Shown here piece by piece: positions 4,267 through 56,274 of a stretch of DNA of 64,000 nucleotides; position 1 is the stretch's first letter, and each line of letters begins with the position of its first letter. The position numbers and the translations under genes are program-made. The stretch is taken from assembly GCA_903970185.1 (NCBI GenBank), contig CAJCIC010000084.1, forward strand, positions 1 through 64,000, in the 5' to 3' direction. A model generated the notes under the pieces. That model did not search any database and was not told the origin of the DNA. It worked only from the letters and a program-made list of their open reading frames with translations. This DNA comes from Gammaproteobacteria bacterium. GTDB lineage: Bacteria; Pseudomonadota; Gammaproteobacteria; Burkholderiales; Burkholderiaceae_D.

Positions 4267-6918
4267 ATGCTCGGCAAACTGACCTGGTCGGCGATTCCGT
4301 TTAACCAGCCGATACCGCTTTTGACATCGATCCTCGTGATCCTCGCCATGCTGGCGATCCTCGCCTGGGTGACGGTGAAAGGCCATTGGCCGTACCTCTG
4401 GCGCGACTGGATCACGTCCGTCGATCACAAGCACATCGGCATCATGTATTGCCTGCTCGCGCTCGTCATGCTGATCCGCGGCTTTGCCGACGCGATCATG
4501 ATGCGCGGGCAACAGGCCGTCGCATTGCACGGGCAGGGATTCCTGCCGCCCGAGCATTTCGATCAGATCTTCTCCGCGCACGGCACGATCATGATCTTTT
4601 TCGTCGCCATGCCGTTCATGATCGGCCTCATGAATGTGATCGTGCCCCTGCAGCTTGGCGTGCGCGACGTCGCCTTCCCGACATTCAATTCGGTGAGCTT
4701 CTGGCTCACCGCCTCGGCCGTGCTGCTTGTCAACGCGTCGCTATTCATCGGCGAATTCGCCCAGACCGGCTGGCTTGTCTATCCGCCTTTGTCCGAGCTC
4801 AAGTTCTCGCCAGGCGTGGGTGTCGACTACTACCTCTGGGCGATCCAGATCTCAGGCATCGGCACGCTTTTGACCGGAATCAATTTCGTCACGACCATTC
4901 TCAAGGTGCGTGCGCCGGGCATGACCTACACGCGCATGCCGATCTTTTGCTGGACCGCGCTTGCCGCCAACCTGCTCATTGTCGCGGCATTTCCGATTCT
5001 CACCGCGAGCCTTGGCATGCTCCTGCTTGACCGCTATCTCGGCTTCCATTTCTTTACGACCGACCTGGGCGGCAATCCGATGATGTACATCAACCTCATC
5101 TGGGCCTGGGGTCATCCGGAAGTCTACATTCTCATCCTGCCTGCGTTCGGCGTTTTCTCCGAGGTGATCTCGACGTTCTCGGCCAAGCCGCTGTTTGGCT
5201 ACCGCTCGATGATCATCGCCACGATGGCGATCTGCATCTTGTCTTTCATGGTCTGGCTGCATCATTTCTTCACGATGGGTGCCGGGGCCGATGTCAACGG
5301 GTTCTTCGGCATCATGACCATGATCATCGCCGTGCCTACCGGCGTAAAAATCTTCAACTGGCTTTTCACCATGTGGGCCGGGCGGGTCCGCTTCGAAGTG
5401 CCGATGCTCTGGGCCATTGCCTTCATGGTGACCTTCGTTGTAGGCGGCATGACCGGCGTGCTGCTGGCCGTGCCCCCGGCCGATTTTGTCTTGCACAATT
5501 CGCTCTTTCTGGTTGCGCACTTTCACAATGTCGTGATCGGCGGCGTGCTGTTTGGCGCGTTCGCTGGCTACTCCTACTGGTTCCCCAAGGCATTTGGCTT
5601 CAAGCTTGACGAACGCTGGGGCAAGGCCGCGTTTGGCTTTTGGCTGGTCGGCTTTTACGTGGCCTTCATGCCGCTTTACGTGCTCGGCCTCGAGGGCATG
5701 ACGCGTCGCATGCAGCACTACGATGTTGACCGCTGGCAACCGTGGCTGCTGGTGGCAGCAGCAGGCGCCGTGCTGATTTTCGCGGGTATCGGCTGCCAGG
5801 CGATTCAGCTTGTCGTCTCGATCCGAAATCGCGAGGCCCTGCGTGACCACATCGGTGACCCGTGGGATGGACGCACGCTGGAATGGAGCACGAGCTCGCC
5901 GCCGCCGGAATTCAACTTCGCCGTCATGCCCGATGTCACGGGCGATGAAGCCTACTGGACGATGAAGCAAAGGGCCATCGAAGAACGTCGCCTGACCGAT
6001 CTGCCCAACTACAAGGCGATCGAGATGCCAAACAACAGTGCGACCGGCTTCGTTGTGTCATTTTTTGCCGTGGTGACCGGGTTCGCCCTGATCTGGCACA
6101 TCTGGTGGATGGTCATCGCAGGCCTTGCCGGTGCATTTGCGACCTTCGTGGTTTTCGCCTGGCGCGACCACTCCGAGCACGAGCTGCCTGCAAGCGAGCT
6201 GGCGCGCATCGACCTCTTAAGGCGCAACGCCCGCATTGACCTGGTCGAGGGGCGCGAGAAGCACATTACCCCTGTCAAGCTCGTCGCGGGGGGCGAAGGC
6301 GAGGATCCGCACAAGGTGCATGGCGGGCCACCTGATGGCGGCCACAAGGGGCCTGCGCCCAAGCGCATCCTCACCGGCTACGGATTCTGGATTTTCTTGC
6401 TGTCCGATTTCATCATTTTCGCTGGCTTCTACGCGGCCTACGCGGTGCTCTCGCACGCGACCGCCGGCGGCCCGACGCCAGTGCAGCTGTTCGATCTCAA
6501 GAACGTCGCGCTCGAGACGGCATTCCTTTTACTTTCGAGCTTTGCCTGCGGCATGGCCATGCTTGCCAGCAATGTGCGCAACATGCTCTGGACGCAGGTC
6601 GGCTACCTCGTCACGGGTGCCCTCGGCCTCGCCTTTCTGATCCTCGAAGTCACCGAGTTTGCGCACATGCTGGCGCAGGGCGCAGGCCCTGACCGAAGCG
6701 CATTCCTGTCGGCATTTTTTGCGCTGGTCGGCCTGCACGGCGTTCACGTGACGATCGGCCTGCTCTGGCTTGGCACCATGATGGCGCAGTATTGGGCGAA
6801 AGGATTCAGAGCCGACATCATGCGGCGCGGCATGTGCTTTGCGCTCTTTTGGCATGCGCTTGACATTATCTGGGTCGGAATTTTTACCAACGTCTATCTT
6901 TTGGGGACAGCTCCATGA
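4267..6918 (+). CDS. cyoB: Fused cytochrome bo3 oxidase subunits I and III (CyoB-CyoC)
   Basis: An 883-residue chain joining the catalytic subunit I (about 1-665) to subunit III (about 715-883) through a charged Gly/Pro-rich linker. In the CyoB part the haem b ligands His105 and His420, high-spin haem ligand His418 and CuB ligands His283, His332 and His333 are present, as are the cross-linked Tyr287, proton-channel Glu285 and Lys361, and quinol-site residues Arg71, Asp75, His97 and Gln100. The C-terminal part begins [20 protein letters not shown] and keeps the CyoC fold. E. coli and most relatives have separate genes. No cyoE (haem O synthase) follows in this operon. Confidence 0.95.
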
Positions 6919-18414: not shown

Positions 18415-18733
18415 GGCGTGTCCTTGTCTGAAGGTGACCCGAAGACGGTGTCAACGGGGGTCACCTTGAAGGTATCCACCTGGCGCCAAAAGGTTACAGC
18501 GACGCCGAATGATTTTTTTCGCTGCGGCAAGTCTGCCCTCGCCATCGCATCTTTTCGGGGCGGACAGGCAAGGCATTGGCATATGTGCAAGGGGGTCTTC
18601 GCCTTCTTCGCGACAGTTTGTTGCGCAATTCGGCAAACGATTTTTTTCCCAAGTTGCGGTGCTTTACATTGCGCATGCTCGACGGCAAGATAGTTCGTGT
18701 ACACAGCAGCAAGTCGATGCAAGGCATGACGAG
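18415..18733. other. Divergent intergenic region
   Basis: 319 bases between the CPBP gene and the diguanylate cyclase. It holds two oligo-T tracts (near 18508 and 18640) and a run of AT-rich sequence before the cyclase start, but no repeat or RNA gene that I can identify. An upstream in-frame extension of the cyclase frame to 18509 is not domain-like. Confidence 0.45.
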
Positions 18734-20716
18734 ATGAGCGAAGGCAAGCGCGGCACGTCGATTCCGGTCGGACTTTTGCATTCGGTGCACGGCACCATGG
18801 CCATTGGCGAGACCTCGATGCGCGACGTGCTGCTGATGGAAATCGAGCGCGTCAACGCGGCGGGCGGGCTCCTTGGGCGACAGATCGAGGCCATTTCGCT
18901 TGACCCCGCGTCCAATTGGATGGCGTATCGCGACCTCGCGGTGAAACTGATCGAGGAGCACGACGCGCAAGCCATCTTTGGTTGCTGGACCTCGAGTTCA
19001 CGCAAATCGGTGCTCCCGGTTGTCGAGGAATTCGACCGGCTGCTGTTCTATCCGGTGCAGTACGAAGGCGAGGAGCTATCGCGCAATATCTTCTACTTCG
19101 GCGCGACGCCGAACCAGCAGGCGATTCCTGCGCTTGAATACCTGCTCTCCTCGGAAGGTGGCGGCTTCACCCGCTTCTTTTTTCTCGGCACCGATTACGT
19201 CTATCCCCGGACCACCAACCGCGTGCTGAAGCTCTTCCTGGATGCCAAGGGCCTGAAAACCGAGGGCTTTCCGGAATGCTATGTGCCGTTTGGTCACGCC
19301 CAGTGGCATGATCAGATGGAGGAGATCCAGGCGTTCTACGAGGGGGGACGCGGCGCGGTGATCTCGACGCTCAATGGCGATACCAACCTGAGCTTTTACC
19401 GGGCCTTCAAGGCGCGCGGTTTTCCGGTTGAAGATCTGCCGGTCATGGCGTTTTCGGTGACCGAAGCGGAATTGCAGTTGATCGAGCCTGATGACGTCAT
19501 CGGCCAGATGGCGTGCACCAGCTATTTCATGTCCAACACGTCTCCCGAAAACGCCGCGTTCATCGCCAGCTGGCAAGAGCGCTGGCAAGCGCCACGGCCC
19601 GTCTACGATGCGATGGTCTCGACAATTCTGAGCTTTCGCATGTGGTGCAAGGCCGTGACAGCGGCAAAGAGCACGGCCACCAGCGCCGTGCGCCAGTATA
19701 TGTATGGCCAGACCGAAAGGTCGCTAAACGGCAACACCTGCACGATGGGAATCAACCATCACGGCGACCTGTCGACTTTCGTTGGTCGCGCCAACCGCCA
19801 GCGCAGTTTCGACATCGTCTGGGCATCGCCGCGAAAGGTCGCAGGCGACCCTTTTGCTGCCGCCACGATCATCGCCGACACGCGCGCGGCCAACGAAAAG
19901 CGGGCGCTGCTCGAGGCGCTGCCAACGCCGCTGTTCGTGGTTGATGGAGAAAGCAAGGTTCGCTACCGCACGCCAAGCACCCATCGCTACTTTGGCCAGA
20001 CCATTGCCAAAGGCCAGATCACCGATATTCGCAATGCCGCCAATGCCAATGCGGCCGACCTGCAGATCAGCGACCATAACGGACGCACCGTGCACATGAC
20101 CGCGTCTTCGCGTGAACTGATGTTCGAAGGCGAACCGTCGTATCTGGTGTCGCTTGCCGATGTCACCCACATCCGCGAGGTCGAGGAAAAGCTGCGCGCA
20201 ACCAACGGCGAATTGCGCCAGCTCGCGACCATTGATTCTCTCACCAATGTCAGCAACCGGCGCCATTTCATGGACACGGCGCTGGTTTCGCTTGACCGCA
20301 TGCGTGAGCTTGGCAGGCCGGCTGCGGTGTTCATGCTCGATGTCGATGCCTTCAAGCTTGTCAACGATCGCTATGGTCACGAGGTCGGCGACCGCGTGCT
20401 GGTGCTGATTGCCGATACGATGCGCCATTCGCTTCGCGAGTGGGATGTGTTCGGGCGCCTTGGCGGAGACGAATTTGCCGGGCTGCTGTTTGATACCAAC
20501 ACGGCCCATGCGTTTGCGGTGCTTGACCGCCTGCGCACGCAACTGGCCTCGATTCGCATCGAATCAGAAGGCGAGGTCGTGAGCTTCACTTCAAGTATCG
20601 GCATGACGCCGATCGCAGCCAACGATACTTTCGCCGAAGGCCTGAAGCGCGCAGACGATGCCCTCTATCGCGCCAAGCGCACGGGCCGCAACCGGGTTTT
20701 CATCGGATCGGGCTAA
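18734..20716 (+). CDS. UrtA-like receptor domain fused to PAS and GGDEF (diguanylate cyclase)
   Basis: 660 residues. Residues about 8-380 follow the urea-binding protein UrtA and the amide sensor AmiC closely: LLHSVHGTMAIGETSMRD, FGCWTSSSRKSVLPVVEEF, YPVQYEGEE and GTDYVYPRTTN. A short PAS domain (about 405-485) and a GGDEF domain follow, with GGDEF at 577-581 and an RxxD product-inhibition site (REWD) five residues before it. There is no signal peptide or membrane segment, so ligand sensing must be cytoplasmic. It would make cyclic di-GMP in response to urea or a short amide. The start is ATG 18734 because the earlier frame has no homology. Confidence 0.9.
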   Translation: MSEGKRGTSIPVGLLHSVHGTMAIGETSMRDVLLMEIERVNAAGGLLGRQIEAISLDPASNWMAYRDLAVKLIEEHDAQAIFGCWTSSSRKSVLPVVEEFDRLLFYPVQYEGEELSRNIFYFGATPNQQAIPALEYLLSSEGGGFTRFFFLGTDYVYPRTTNRVLKLFLDAKGLKTEGFPECYVPFGHAQWHDQMEEIQAFYEGGRGAVISTLNGDTNLSFYRAFKARGFPVEDLPVMAFSVTEAELQLIEPDDVIGQMACTSYFMSNTSPENAAFIASWQERWQAPRPVYDAMVSTILSFRMWCKAVTAAKSTATSAVRQYMYGQTERSLNGNTCTMGINHHGDLSTFVGRANRQRSFDIVWASPRKVAGDPFAAATIIADTRAANEKRALLEALPTPLFVVDGESKVRYRTPSTHRYFGQTIAKGQITDIRNAANANAADLQISDHNGRTVHMTASSRELMFEGEPSYLVSLADVTHIREVEEKLRATNGELRQLATIDSLTNVSNRRHFMDTALVSLDRMRELGRPAAVFMLDVDAFKLVNDRYGHEVGDRVLVLIADTMRHSLREWDVFGRLGGDEFAGLLFDTNTAHAFAVLDRLRTQLASIRIESEGEVVSFTSSIGMTPIAANDTFAEGLKRADDALYRAKRTGRNRVFIGSG

Positions 20717-20836: not shown

Positions 20837-22561
20837 TCAGGACAGCCCGTCGCGCGCGATCGCGCCAGGGCGCCTCGCTGCGATGATCGGGCGATCGCGG
20901 TCCTCGACTCTTGCGGGGATCGGCGTCTTTTCGGAGAAGCGGGTCAATTCGACCCGTTCCTTGACCTTGAGTCCTTTTTTCGGTCCCCGCACATTGGTCA
21001 TGGTGACGATGGGACGCCGACACTGATCGGGCGCAACCCAGCTCACGGTCTTGTACCTTTGCCCGTTGACGGCGATAAAGCCGGTGCCGACGATCTTGAA
21101 CGCATAGAATTCGCCGGCTGGCACGGTGATTTTTTCTCGTCCGACAATCCTCACATTGAGTTCGACGCGGTCATCGTGTTCATCGAAATGCGGGCCTGCC
21201 GGAACATGGATGGCAAACGCCGTCACCCAGCGCTGGCCAACAAAGTATTCGGCAGGAAAGAGTTGCTCGGGCGAGATGATCTTCATCATGTCGATCGAGA
21301 AATTGCCGTCGTTGTTCAGAAGGTCCGTGACGCGTTGGCCGCCGTTATATTCGACGCGGGTGTCAGAGACGGCTGTGACGCTAAAGGACTGAAGCGCCGT
21401 TCTCACCTTGGTCAGGGTATCGAGCACCTGATATTCGTAAATGTCGCCGACCTCGAAATGCACATCGGGCAGTGAAGTGCCCTTGGAATACGGATTTGCC
21501 GGGTCCGACACCGGTAGCACCCGTTTCTCGCCTTGCTTGGCGAGCAGCAGATTGAGGGCAGCCTGGGCCGATTCGGAGTAGGGCCCGCTGGGATCGCGCC
21601 GCAAGAATCCTGCGACGACATCCGGATCGGTCGACACCCGCGTCACGTTCCATTCGGTCAGGTCCTGCTCGAATTTGACCTTGCGCTGCTCTTCGCTCAG
21701 TTTCGGCGGGGCGCCTGCCGGTAACAGATAGAAGTCACCTTCAAGCGAGGTGCTCTCCCATGGAATTTGCGAGCCCTTGGAGCGGCGCCTGACCGCGAGG
21801 CGCACGCGCTTGAAGACATCTTCGATCTTCAGTTTCGGATCGCGCATCTCGATGAGCAGATTGCCGGTGTACAAACCGTTGCTGCCGTCACCGTCGCTCG
21901 CCGTGCTGCCAGGTGCCGTGGCATAGGCGAGCAGCGTGCCAGGCGGTGCATCGAACTGGCTAAGTCCCTTTGCCTGCAAGCGCAAGCGGCTGCCAAACGG
22001 ATCATCGCGACAGGCGTCAAGAATCAGGATGTTCATGGGATTCTTGGCTTGCCGCAGCCCGTCGAGCAGGGTCCCGAGGTCGAGTGTCGCGGCTGCCAAT
22101 TGCTCAGGCTCGCTGATATTCGCGTCGACCGGAATCAGATAGTTGCGCCATGCTTGCTGCGCGCCGTGCCCGGCGTAGTAAAAGAGCCCGACGGCTTCGT
22201 GCTGCCTCAGTCGCGCGCAATAGTCCGCGATCGCGCCCAACATCTGGGCGCGGTCGGCGTCGACCAGAAGCACCGTCTCAAACCCCATCTGGCGCAACTG
22301 CTGCGCCATCGCCGTGGCGTCTCGGGACGGATTGGCCAGAGGCGCAGCCGGGTAATTGCCGTTGCCAATGACAAGCGCAAGGCGCGCCGCATTGCTGTAG
22401 TTTTCGGGGGCCTGGCTGCCCTCAGCCTCGGCATCGTCGTCCTCGGAAGCGGCGCGAAGATTGCCCCCCAACGCTGACGACAGAAGGAGCGCGCCGCTTC
22501 CGGCCAGCCAGCGCCGGCGTGTCAGGTTGCAAACGGCAGCGCCGCGTTCCTCATCAATCAT
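20837..22561 (-). CDS. Tat-exported caspase-like (peptidase C14) protein
   Basis: 574 residues. The N-terminus has a twin-arginine signal (TRRRWLAGSGALLLSSA). The caspase-like domain (about 58-280) contains the dyad His132 (YYAGHGAQ) and Cys184 (LDACRDDP) and opens with RLALVIGNGNY, as in bacterial metacaspase-type enzymes. The C-terminal 250 residues are beta-rich and probably bind a partner or the envelope. Target proteins are unknown. Confidence 0.88.
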   Translation of the reverse strand: MIDEERGAAVCNLTRRRWLAGSGALLLSSALGGNLRAASEDDDAEAEGSQAPENYSNAARLALVIGNGNYPAAPLANPSRDATAMAQQLRQMGFETVLLVDADRAQMLGAIADYCARLRQHEAVGLFYYAGHGAQQAWRNYLIPVDANISEPEQLAAATLDLGTLLDGLRQAKNPMNILILDACRDDPFGSRLRLQAKGLSQFDAPPGTLLAYATAPGSTASDGDGSNGLYTGNLLIEMRDPKLKIEDVFKRVRLAVRRRSKGSQIPWESTSLEGDFYLLPAGAPPKLSEEQRKVKFEQDLTEWNVTRVSTDPDVVAGFLRRDPSGPYSESAQAALNLLLAKQGEKRVLPVSDPANPYSKGTSLPDVHFEVGDIYEYQVLDTLTKVRTALQSFSVTAVSDTRVEYNGGQRVTDLLNNDGNFSIDMMKIISPEQLFPAEYFVGQRWVTAFAIHVPAGPHFDEHDDRVELNVRIVGREKITVPAGEFYAFKIVGTGFIAVNGQRYKTVSWVAPDQCRRPIVTMTNVRGPKKGLKVKERVELTRFSEKTPIPARVEDRDRPIIAARRPGAIARDGLS

Positions 22562-39688: not shown

Positions 39689-41797
39689 ATGACAGAAGAA
39701 AAAGCTCAGTTCGGGACCGTGCTCAACCGCCTGCGTGCGGGCATCGTCGTGCACGAACGGACATCGCGCATCCGCTACGCCAATGAAAGAGCTGCAGGAT
39801 TGCTCGGGTGGCCCCCCGACCAATTGCTAGGCGTACAAAATGATGATCCGCGCTGGGCATTCTGTCGAGAAGACGGCTCGCCCATGCCAGTCGATGAATA
39901 CCCGGCCACGCGGGCGCTTTTCGGTGGAGAAATCGTCGAAGACCTCATCGTCGGCCTGCGCAGGCAAAGCGATGGGCAGCTGATCTGGCTGATCTGCAAT
40001 GCCGAGCCGGTTCTCGATGACCAGGGCGAGGTCGTCGAAGCAGTCGTGAGTTTCACGGATATCACGCGACTCAAGTCCGTCGAGCGGGCCCTCTATGAAT
40101 CGGAGGAGCGACTTCGACTCGTGATCGAAGGCTCGAACGACGCGTCCTGGGATGTCGACTTGGTCACGGGCGTTCAGTATTTTTCGTCGCGCTGGTGGTC
40201 CATGCTTGGCCGCGACCCCGCGTCGACTCCAGCAAGCCTGGATAGCTGGAGGGACTACTTGCATCCCGAGGACAGGGCCCGCGCGATCGATGAGTACGAG
40301 CGCGCCCTGGAAGATGGCTCGTCGTCATTTGAGATCGAGTTCCGGCTCCTGCACGCCTATGGTCACTACGTGCCGATCCTGTCGCGCGGCTTGATCCTGC
40401 GTTCCGGGAACGGGCAGCCGCTGCGGGTGGCTGGAACCAACATGGACCTCACCGAGCGCAAGCTTCTCGAACAGCAGGCCTATCAGTTCGCATTTTTCGA
40501 CGGTTTGACGGGCCTGCCCAACCGCCAGCTCCTGGTTGAACAGATTCAAAAGGCGATTCGCGGGATATCGCGAAGCAGGCGATACGCGGCTTTGCTGTTG
40601 GTCAATCTTGATAGCTTCAAAATCTATAACGAGACGTTGGGGCATGACGCGGCGGATGCCTTGCTGAAAATGGTTGCGGAACGGCTCAGGGCGAATGTCA
40701 GGGATGCAGATAGCGTTGGCCGACTCGGGGGCGACGAATTTATCGTGCTGCTTGAGCACTTGCCGGTGTCCGTTCGAGATGCGGCGGTCGAAGCCGAGCA
40801 AATCGGTGAAATCATCCTCGATAGCTTAGGTCAGCCCTACGTCCTTGCCGGAAATAGCCACGTGCTTACGGCCAGTGTCGGTGTCACTCTGATCGATGGC
40901 TCCGACCCAAGCGCGGCGAGTGTTCTTCGCCAGGCCGACCTGGCCATGTATGAAGCCAAGTCGATGGGGGGCAGCACACTGCGCTTCTTCGACCTGAATA
41001 TGCAAACCACGGTGGACCAGCGCCTTGACCTCGAGAGGGAGCTTCGCAAGGCGGTTCAGGCGGAGCAGTTGCGCCTGTTCTACCAGCCCCAGGTCTCGGT
41101 GGAAGGCCGCGTGCTAGGCGCAGAGGTACTCTTGAGGTGGCAGCATCCGGAACGCGGCATGATCATGCCCGACGTATTCATTCCGGTCGCAGAGTCAAGT
41201 GCGCTGATCCTGCAGCTTGGAGGCTGGGCCTTGCGCACCGCCTGTACCCAACTCAAGCACTGGGCGAATCATCCGGTGTTTAGCCGACTCTCGTTGTCGG
41301 TGAATGTGAGTGTGCGCCAATTCAACGCGGTTGATTTTGTCAGCACCGTCCTTGCCGTGGTGAATGAGACCGGTGCGGATCCTCGCAAGCTCAAGCTTGA
41401 AGTCACCGAGAGCCTGGTCGCAAGAGACATAGAAGGCATGATCTCCAAAATGGCGATGCTCAAAGAGGTGGGCATCGGCTTCTCGCTTGATGATTTCGGC
41501 ACCGGCTATTCGTCGCTTTTCTATCTGCAAAGAATGCCGCTTAACGAACTGAAGATCGATCGCGTGTTTGTTCAGGAAATTTTGACGAATCCTCATCACC
41601 GCGATATCTCCCGCATCATCATCCTGCTCGCCGACACGCTCGGGCTGTCGGTCATCGCGGAGGGAGTGGAAAGTGAGGGTCAGCGCCAGTTCCTGCAGGA
41701 GAGCGGCTGCGATGCCTACCAGGGATATCTTTTCAGTCCGCCAACCCCAGTCGAGTTGTTCGAGAGCGAGACCCTCAGACGCAACCGCATGCACTGA
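39689..41797 (+). CDS. PAS-PAS-GGDEF-EAL cyclic di-GMP signalling protein
   Basis: 702 residues, soluble. Two PAS domains (about 10-128 and 138-256) precede a GGDEF domain with intact GGDEF at 347-351 and an RxxD inhibitory site (RDAD, 338-341), then an EAL domain. The EAL signature reads EVL (479-481), a common functional variant, and SLDDFGTGYSSL and IAEGVE carry the other catalytic acids. It could both make and break cyclic di-GMP, or one domain may regulate the other. Confidence 0.93.
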   Translation: MTEEKAQFGTVLNRLRAGIVVHERTSRIRYANERAAGLLGWPPDQLLGVQNDDPRWAFCREDGSPMPVDEYPATRALFGGEIVEDLIVGLRRQSDGQLIWLICNAEPVLDDQGEVVEAVVSFTDITRLKSVERALYESEERLRLVIEGSNDASWDVDLVTGVQYFSSRWWSMLGRDPASTPASLDSWRDYLHPEDRARAIDEYERALEDGSSSFEIEFRLLHAYGHYVPILSRGLILRSGNGQPLRVAGTNMDLTERKLLEQQAYQFAFFDGLTGLPNRQLLVEQIQKAIRGISRSRRYAALLLVNLDSFKIYNETLGHDAADALLKMVAERLRANVRDADSVGRLGGDEFIVLLEHLPVSVRDAAVEAEQIGEIILDSLGQPYVLAGNSHVLTASVGVTLIDGSDPSAASVLRQADLAMYEAKSMGGSTLRFFDLNMQTTVDQRLDLERELRKAVQAEQLRLFYQPQVSVEGRVLGAEVLLRWQHPERGMIMPDVFIPVAESSALILQLGGWALRTACTQLKHWANHPVFSRLSLSVNVSVRQFNAVDFVSTVLAVVNETGADPRKLKLEVTESLVARDIEGMISKMAMLKEVGIGFSLDDFGTGYSSLFYLQRMPLNELKIDRVFVQEILTNPHHRDISRIIILLADTLGLSVIAEGVESEGQRQFLQESGCDAYQGYLFSPPTPVELFESETLRRNRMH

Positions 41798-55503: not shown

Positions 55504-56274
55504 CGCACTGCAGCCTCTTAAGGCATCGTGCCTCGATCAGGGGAAGCGATGCAAAGCCTGCGTTGCTTCGATCGGGTCTCGTCGTCGACGCACAACCCCT
55601 CTGACCGGATGCAGGCCAGAGCAAGGACCGAATGTTCGATCAGCGTAGCTGCGCTGCGCCACGGTGGTTCATCTGAACCCGGCGGTTGCGGTTTCGCCGG
55701 GCAGCGTTGATGCGCAGTCGAACGCCTCGGTGGCGCGGCTGGAAATTGGCCGATGGGCGAAAGCGCTGCAGTCCGACACGAATGTCGCGGGTCGCACGAT
55801 TCTCCTCTGGAATGAGCAGCGCTTGGAAGATGCGATGCAAATGGCTCGCTACGTCAAGGTGCTGAGAAAGGCGGGAGCCAACGTCGTTGTCCAGTCCATC
55901 ACGGATGGGTGCCAAACGGCGCTCTGACCCGCAATCGATGTGCGGTAACGTACATACGGCAGGCGCGAACAAGGCGACAGTGCCAAGAATGGGGCGTTTC
56001 CTGCGTAGCTGGCTGCGGATGCATCATCTGCCCTTCGGTGAGTCCTCCCGTGCAGATGTCAAATCGCAGCCGCAACCTGCGAAGAAAGTGCCGCGGGGCA
56101 TCCTCCTCGCACAGGGATGAGACTGCGGGTGGTACTCTCCAGCGGCAACCCGATCGCACGGGATCGTCTTAGAAAGCAGGCGCGGCGTGATCCTTCTTCT
56201 TGCCAAGCGTTCACCGGACTCGCCCATTGGCGTTGCTTTTCGGTGCGCATTTGCGCATTCGTCGTGAGTCGACC
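55504..56274 (+). other. Debris region before the phytochrome gene
   Basis: 771 bases. It contains a glycosyltransferase scrap (55664-55927) and otherwise no recognisable coding. Codon bias is irregular and stops are frequent in all frames. No terminator or RNA gene was seen. Confidence 0.45.
55664..55927 (+). pseudogene. Fragment of a TPR-linked glycosyltransferase gene
   Basis: 87 codons in which RWAKALQSDTNVAGRTILLW followed by NEQRLEDAMQMARYVKVL matches in pattern the linker between TPR repeats and the glycosyltransferase domain of SPINDLY-like bacterial proteins (W.G..L.GRTILLHAEQG.GD..QFARY). The preceding TPRs and the catalytic domain are missing, and several key Gly residues are changed, so it is a relic. 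Confidence 0.45.

Follow-up and report, generated by a model that had tools for sequence, protein, structure and literature searches.

The window analyzed here is the whole stretch of 64,000 nucleotides, and on its plus strand, at positions 18734−20716, it encodes a soluble protein of 660 residues. A receptor domain of the UrtA type, a weakly PAS-like segment, a connecting helix and a GGDEF domain follow one another in this single chain. The features of the locus are listed below with the evidence behind each.

18470−18733, plus strand: in-frame upstream extension, judged a non-coding leader that provides no signal peptide (no leader-like stretch; GC3; no Rfam match)
18734−20716, plus strand: gene for the UrtA-PAS-GGDEF protein, stop codon included (open reading frame and Pfam; start backed by the GC3 shift and the ortholog)
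18761−19861, plus strand: UrtA-type receptor domain, Peripla_BP_5, residues 10−376 (Pfam E 2e-124; AlphaFold fold matches)
18986−19456, plus strand: codon span of the urea-pocket residues W85, S87, Y106, Q109, E111, Y155, Y157, N214 and S241 (mapping on 8HIC)
19862−20164, plus strand: linker and weak PAS-like domain, residues 377−477 (Pfam PAS 20.8 bits; AlphaFold; 53% identity to the ortholog)
20165−20224, plus strand: connecting (signal) helix, residues 478−497 (helix 478−499 in the AlphaFold model)
20225−20695, plus strand: GGDEF diguanylate cyclase domain, residues 498−654, with I-site R568−D571 and GGDEF at 577−581 (Pfam E 1e-37)

The reading frame remains open upstream to 18470 and offers possible starts at 18509 (ATG), 18533 (CTG) and 18659 (GTG), none of which yields a leader combining charged and hydrophobic residues. 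The transport UrtAs used for comparison do begin with recognizable leaders. GC at third codon positions (GC3) is 0.45 in the extension versus 0.75 in the gene, and this drop, together with the lack of a signal-like leader, makes it very probable that the extension is untranslated. The same start is supported by the only full-length relative found, which is 60% identical and comes from Betaproteobacteria bacterium RYN_558 (MAG; G154:C34; contig JAQGMJ010000086.1). Here, a GGAGGA ribosome site precedes a TTG start codon, and no room is left for a leader because an in-frame TGA lies two codons 5′ of that TTG. Furthermore, neither protein contains a transmembrane-like stretch; in the window protein, mean hydropathy over 19 residues peaks at 1.09. 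Together, these observations support a predicted cytoplasmic location without an export signal, as a sequence-only reading of this DNA had proposed. A signal peptide supplied by an upstream start, which that reading had named beforehand as evidence against itself, was examined at 18509, 18533 and 18659 and found no support; it was rejected on the leader scan, the GC3 of the extension and the TGA of the ortholog.

The upstream leader gave no Rfam match and folded no better than shuffled sequences. A riboswitch or other structured leader was rejected on these grounds, and no convincing sigma-54 promoter site was seen within 300 bases upstream. A terminator-like hairpin followed by a T run occupies 18616−18638 on the plus strand, about 100 bases 5′ of the start codon; it likewise has no Rfam match, and no plus-strand gene lies just 5′ of it.

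The N-terminal part belongs to the UrtA family as a domain, scoring 415.7 bits for PF13433 (Peripla_BP_5; cut-off 27) over residues 10−376. With the NCBIfam model for UrtA (TIGR03407), it reaches 411.8 bits, below the curated cut-off of 492.75, while the transport UrtA of the same genome scores 583.6 bits. The AlphaFold model of the full protein has a mean pLDDT of 87 and a pTM of 0.62, and pLDDT exceeds 90 over most of the receptor and cyclase domains. Its nearest solved structures are the UrtAs 8tg1, 8hic, 7s6f and 7s6e (VIA Z 52.6−53.8), followed by AmiC (VIA Z ~49) and then by other solute-binding proteins at 42 and lower; the AmiC-AmiR complex 1qo0 is also among the best fold matches. Both the Pfam assignment and these matches bear out the UrtA kinship first suspected for the initial ~370 residues. 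More specifically, the domain shares with the UrtA of the urea ABC transporter (8HIC, 7S6E, 7S6F, 8TG1) its fold, 46−50% identity (measured against transport UrtAs of proteobacteria) and the eight conserved urea-contacting residues. It differs from UrtA in having no export signal, in being joined to PAS-like and GGDEF domains, in lying away from UrtBCDE and in scoring below the TIGR03407 cut-off. By these sequence features, it is not a transport UrtA proper.

The structure of Prochlorococcus UrtA with urea (8HIC) provides a reference for the binding pocket. Its residues W120, S122, Y141, Q144, E146, Y190, N246 and S274 are invariant among UrtA proteins, mutating W120, S122, Q144, Y190 or N246 abolishes or strongly lowers binding, and urea is bound with a Kd of 141 nM (PMC10392092). 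Mapped onto this structure, the window protein carries W85, S87, Y106, Q109, E111, Y155, N214 and S241, identical at all eight positions. The ninth, variable position (F192 in 8HIC) is Y157, as it is in 75 of the 77 aligned sequences. In the alignment, AmiC replaces W by Y, Q by P, N by V and S by T; none of these substitutions occurs in the window protein. With a complete UrtA-type pocket and four positions at which AmiC differs, the predicted ligand is therefore urea rather than aliphatic amides. Of the earlier proposal of "urea or amide", urea thus stands as a prediction from the pocket residues, and aliphatic amides do not. AmiC, the amide sensor of the Pseudomonas amidase operon (1PEA, 1QNL, 1QO0), is nevertheless comparable in its fold and in being a cytoplasmic ligand sensor that works in signaling. 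Apart from the pocket, it differs in acting on AmiR as a protein of its own, whereas the output enzyme of the window protein lies in the same chain.

Behind the receptor, the assignment becomes less clear before it becomes firm again. No PAS match was found in the full-length protein at E 0.01 (Pfam), and the isolated segment scores 20.8 bits, just below the 22.6-bit cut-off. AlphaFold places its elements in a PAS-like order with a pLDDT of ~70 in context, and the segment folded alone without an alignment reaches a mean of 45. The PAS domain suggested at the outset is thus a tentative assignment, favored by the topology in the full model and disfavored by the sub-threshold score and the poor model of the segment alone. 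The cyclase domain, on the other hand, retains all consensus motifs intact (DxLTxxxNRR, DxDxFKxxND..GH..GD and GGDEF), namely 501-DSLTNVSNRR, 536-DVDAFKLVNDRYGHEVGD and GGDEF at 577, with the I-site RxxD present as R568EWD571, five residues upstream of GGDEF. Together with the Pfam E-value of 1e-37, this confirms the intact GGDEF domain with inhibitory site that had been read from the letters. On established knowledge of the GGDEF family, the domain is predicted to act as a cyclase that its product inhibits. Soluble cytoplasmic sensor-diguanylate cyclases are common, and the window protein resembles PAS-GGDEF and other sensor cyclases in its order of sensor, connecting helix and GGDEF with I-site. 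What sets it apart from them is the sensory module, a complete type I solute-binding protein for which a ligand is predicted.

The ortholog in RYN_558, from another family of the same order, has the same architecture and the same eight pocket residues. Identity between the two proteins is 65% in the receptor, 53% in the linker and PAS-like segment and 55% in GGDEF, and the receptor being the best-conserved part fits selection on ligand recognition. The search for this architecture in other genomes, which had been called for beforehand, returned these two full-length fusions among ~1,390 sampled genomes of the order, class, phylum and family. This rarity is approximate because genomes were sampled and the larger protein-search runs scored only a few best candidates per genome. 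All other protein-search matches end at residue 375−385 and are mostly transport UrtAs. A peptide-pattern scan of 84,980 species genomes, which depends on short exact matches and may overlook relatives, found none with a first pattern set and RYN_558 only with a second. Plasmids yielded transport UrtAs only, none at 80% coverage, and not the fusion. No paper on an UrtA-type diguanylate cyclase was found in the open-access literature. Both halves are known families, and it is their combination that is rare.

Cytosolic UrtA-type domains also occur with other outputs. Two proteins of the same order join such a domain to a histidine kinase (G093, L039:2931-5102; G137, L112) and keep 8/8 pocket residues. 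Judged by sequence, histidine kinases of this order use the cytosolic UrtA-type domain independently, and these two are candidate intracellular urea sensor kinases. Five further, apparently soluble proteins combine a chemotaxis signaling domain with a C-terminal UrtA-type domain (G958, L103:562-3027; G1459, G1521, G1564 and G1456; loci L103 and L106−L109). In all five, Y190 is changed to T and N246 to G, so that their ligand has probably changed. Both groups share with the window cyclase a signal-less UrtA-type domain wired to a signaling output, so the design recurs; they differ from it in the output domain, and the chemotaxis fusions also in the C-terminal position of the receptor and the two altered pocket residues. 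In the tree, the window domain pairs with the RYN_558 ortholog at 100/99 support, outside the UrtA cluster of its own family, a placement that does not support its recent origin by duplication from the UrtA of the same genome. A single origin for all cytosolic UrtA sensors was also rejected, since the tree requires two or more. Support for uniting the cyclases with the chemotaxis fusions is 96/95, but both are long branches, and their union may reflect a long-branch effect. We tentatively suggest, at somewhat less than even chances, that a cytosolic UrtA-type urea-sensing module was recruited at least twice in Pseudomonadota and would report intracellular urea, without import, to cyclic di-GMP, to a two-component phosphorelay and, where its pocket is altered, to chemotaxis.

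The same genome encodes, on contig C80, a leader-bearing UrtA and, after it, UrtB, C, D and E (all five above the NCBIfam cut-off), as well as a urease alpha subunit, which makes urea uptake and breakdown plausible. It also holds 35 GGDEF-domain matches. The window gene itself stands alone: its neighbors, which lie on the opposite strand, encode a CAAX-type protease and a caspase-like protein, no nitrogen genes lie beside it, and the ortholog is flanked by transhydrogenase genes and hybrid kinases, a neighborhood the two do not have in common. The link to nitrogen consequently rests on the pocket.

Other parts of the window hold several further genes. The convergent neighbor at 20837−22561 on the minus strand encodes a protein that has a caspase fold (Peptidase_C14) and probably a leader. 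At 56200−61045, a bacteriophytochrome (PAS_2-GAF-PHY-PAS) GGDEF protein has its end overlapped by a MASE1-EAL protein, likely forming a light-set cyclase/phosphodiesterase pair. At 39689−47943, minor type IV pilus genes (N_methyl, PilW, PilY1) come after the gene for a PAS-GGDEF-EAL protein, and one frame at 4267−6918 on the plus strand contains the domains of both cytochrome oxidase subunits I and III.

We consider it reasonably probable that the protein is a soluble cytoplasmic sensor-diguanylate cyclase in which cyclic di-GMP synthesis would be gated by intracellular urea; the broader description, a cytoplasmic cyclase gated by some ligand of its UrtA-type receptor, deserves greater confidence. 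Urea would come in by transport or arise from metabolism, and its binding would close the UrtA-type Venus-flytrap domain. This closure may be relayed via the PAS-like domain and connecting helix, altering the arrangement of PAS, helix and GGDEF. The pairing of two GGDEF domains would then change and, with it, cyclic di-GMP synthesis, the I-site limiting the product. The sequence is compatible with either a rise or a fall of cyclic di-GMP. The complete pocket, the ortholog, the urea genes of the genome and the histidine kinases with a like domain speak for this reading; the weak PAS-like segment, the sub-threshold TIGR03407 score and a gene neighborhood that lacks nitrogen genes and differs from that of the ortholog speak against it.

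The most serious competitor leaves the receptor in the cytosol and lets it drift to another small ligand, such as an amide, allophanate, a guanidine-type compound or another urea analogue, so that a relative of urea would gate the cyclase. Ligand or affinity may indeed have shifted, since the domain scores below the TIGR03407 cut-off and is only 46−50% identical to UrtA; it sits on a long stem in the tree, and the substitutions in all five chemotaxis fusions demonstrate that such pockets can shift. We regard this drift as unlikely, given that the eight conserved residues are unchanged in both the window protein and its ortholog.

A fully kept pocket would also be needless if the UrtA domain were a bare docking or dimerizing platform, with the signal given by the PAS-like domain or a partner. 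AmiC, another protein of this fold, exerts its function through a partner that it binds, and this precedent, the 1qo0 match and a pTM of 0.62, at which domain coupling is not visible from the model alone, favor such a platform; the poorly conserved, sub-threshold PAS speaks against it, and we rate it as rather improbable. Far less probable still is an exported receptor provided with a leader by a true upstream start. The open frame to 18470 and the ATG at 18509 would allow it, but no start yields a signal-like leader, the upstream composition is non-coding, the ortholog has no space for a leader, and there is no transmembrane segment to keep the GGDEF domain inside.

To our knowledge, the input signal of most diguanylate cyclases is unknown. 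Cyclic di-GMP is a biofilm messenger, and in the urea-gated cyclase favored here the part that catches urea for an importer is joined to the enzyme that makes it, providing a rare and directly testable candidate sensor for urea inside the cell. Because a solved urea complex is available against which each residue of its pocket can be matched, the ligand can be named ahead of experiment. If this reading is true, a transport receptor would have been re-used for signaling in the cytoplasm, and nitrogen status, in the form of urea in the cell, would be tied to the choice between motile and sessile life.
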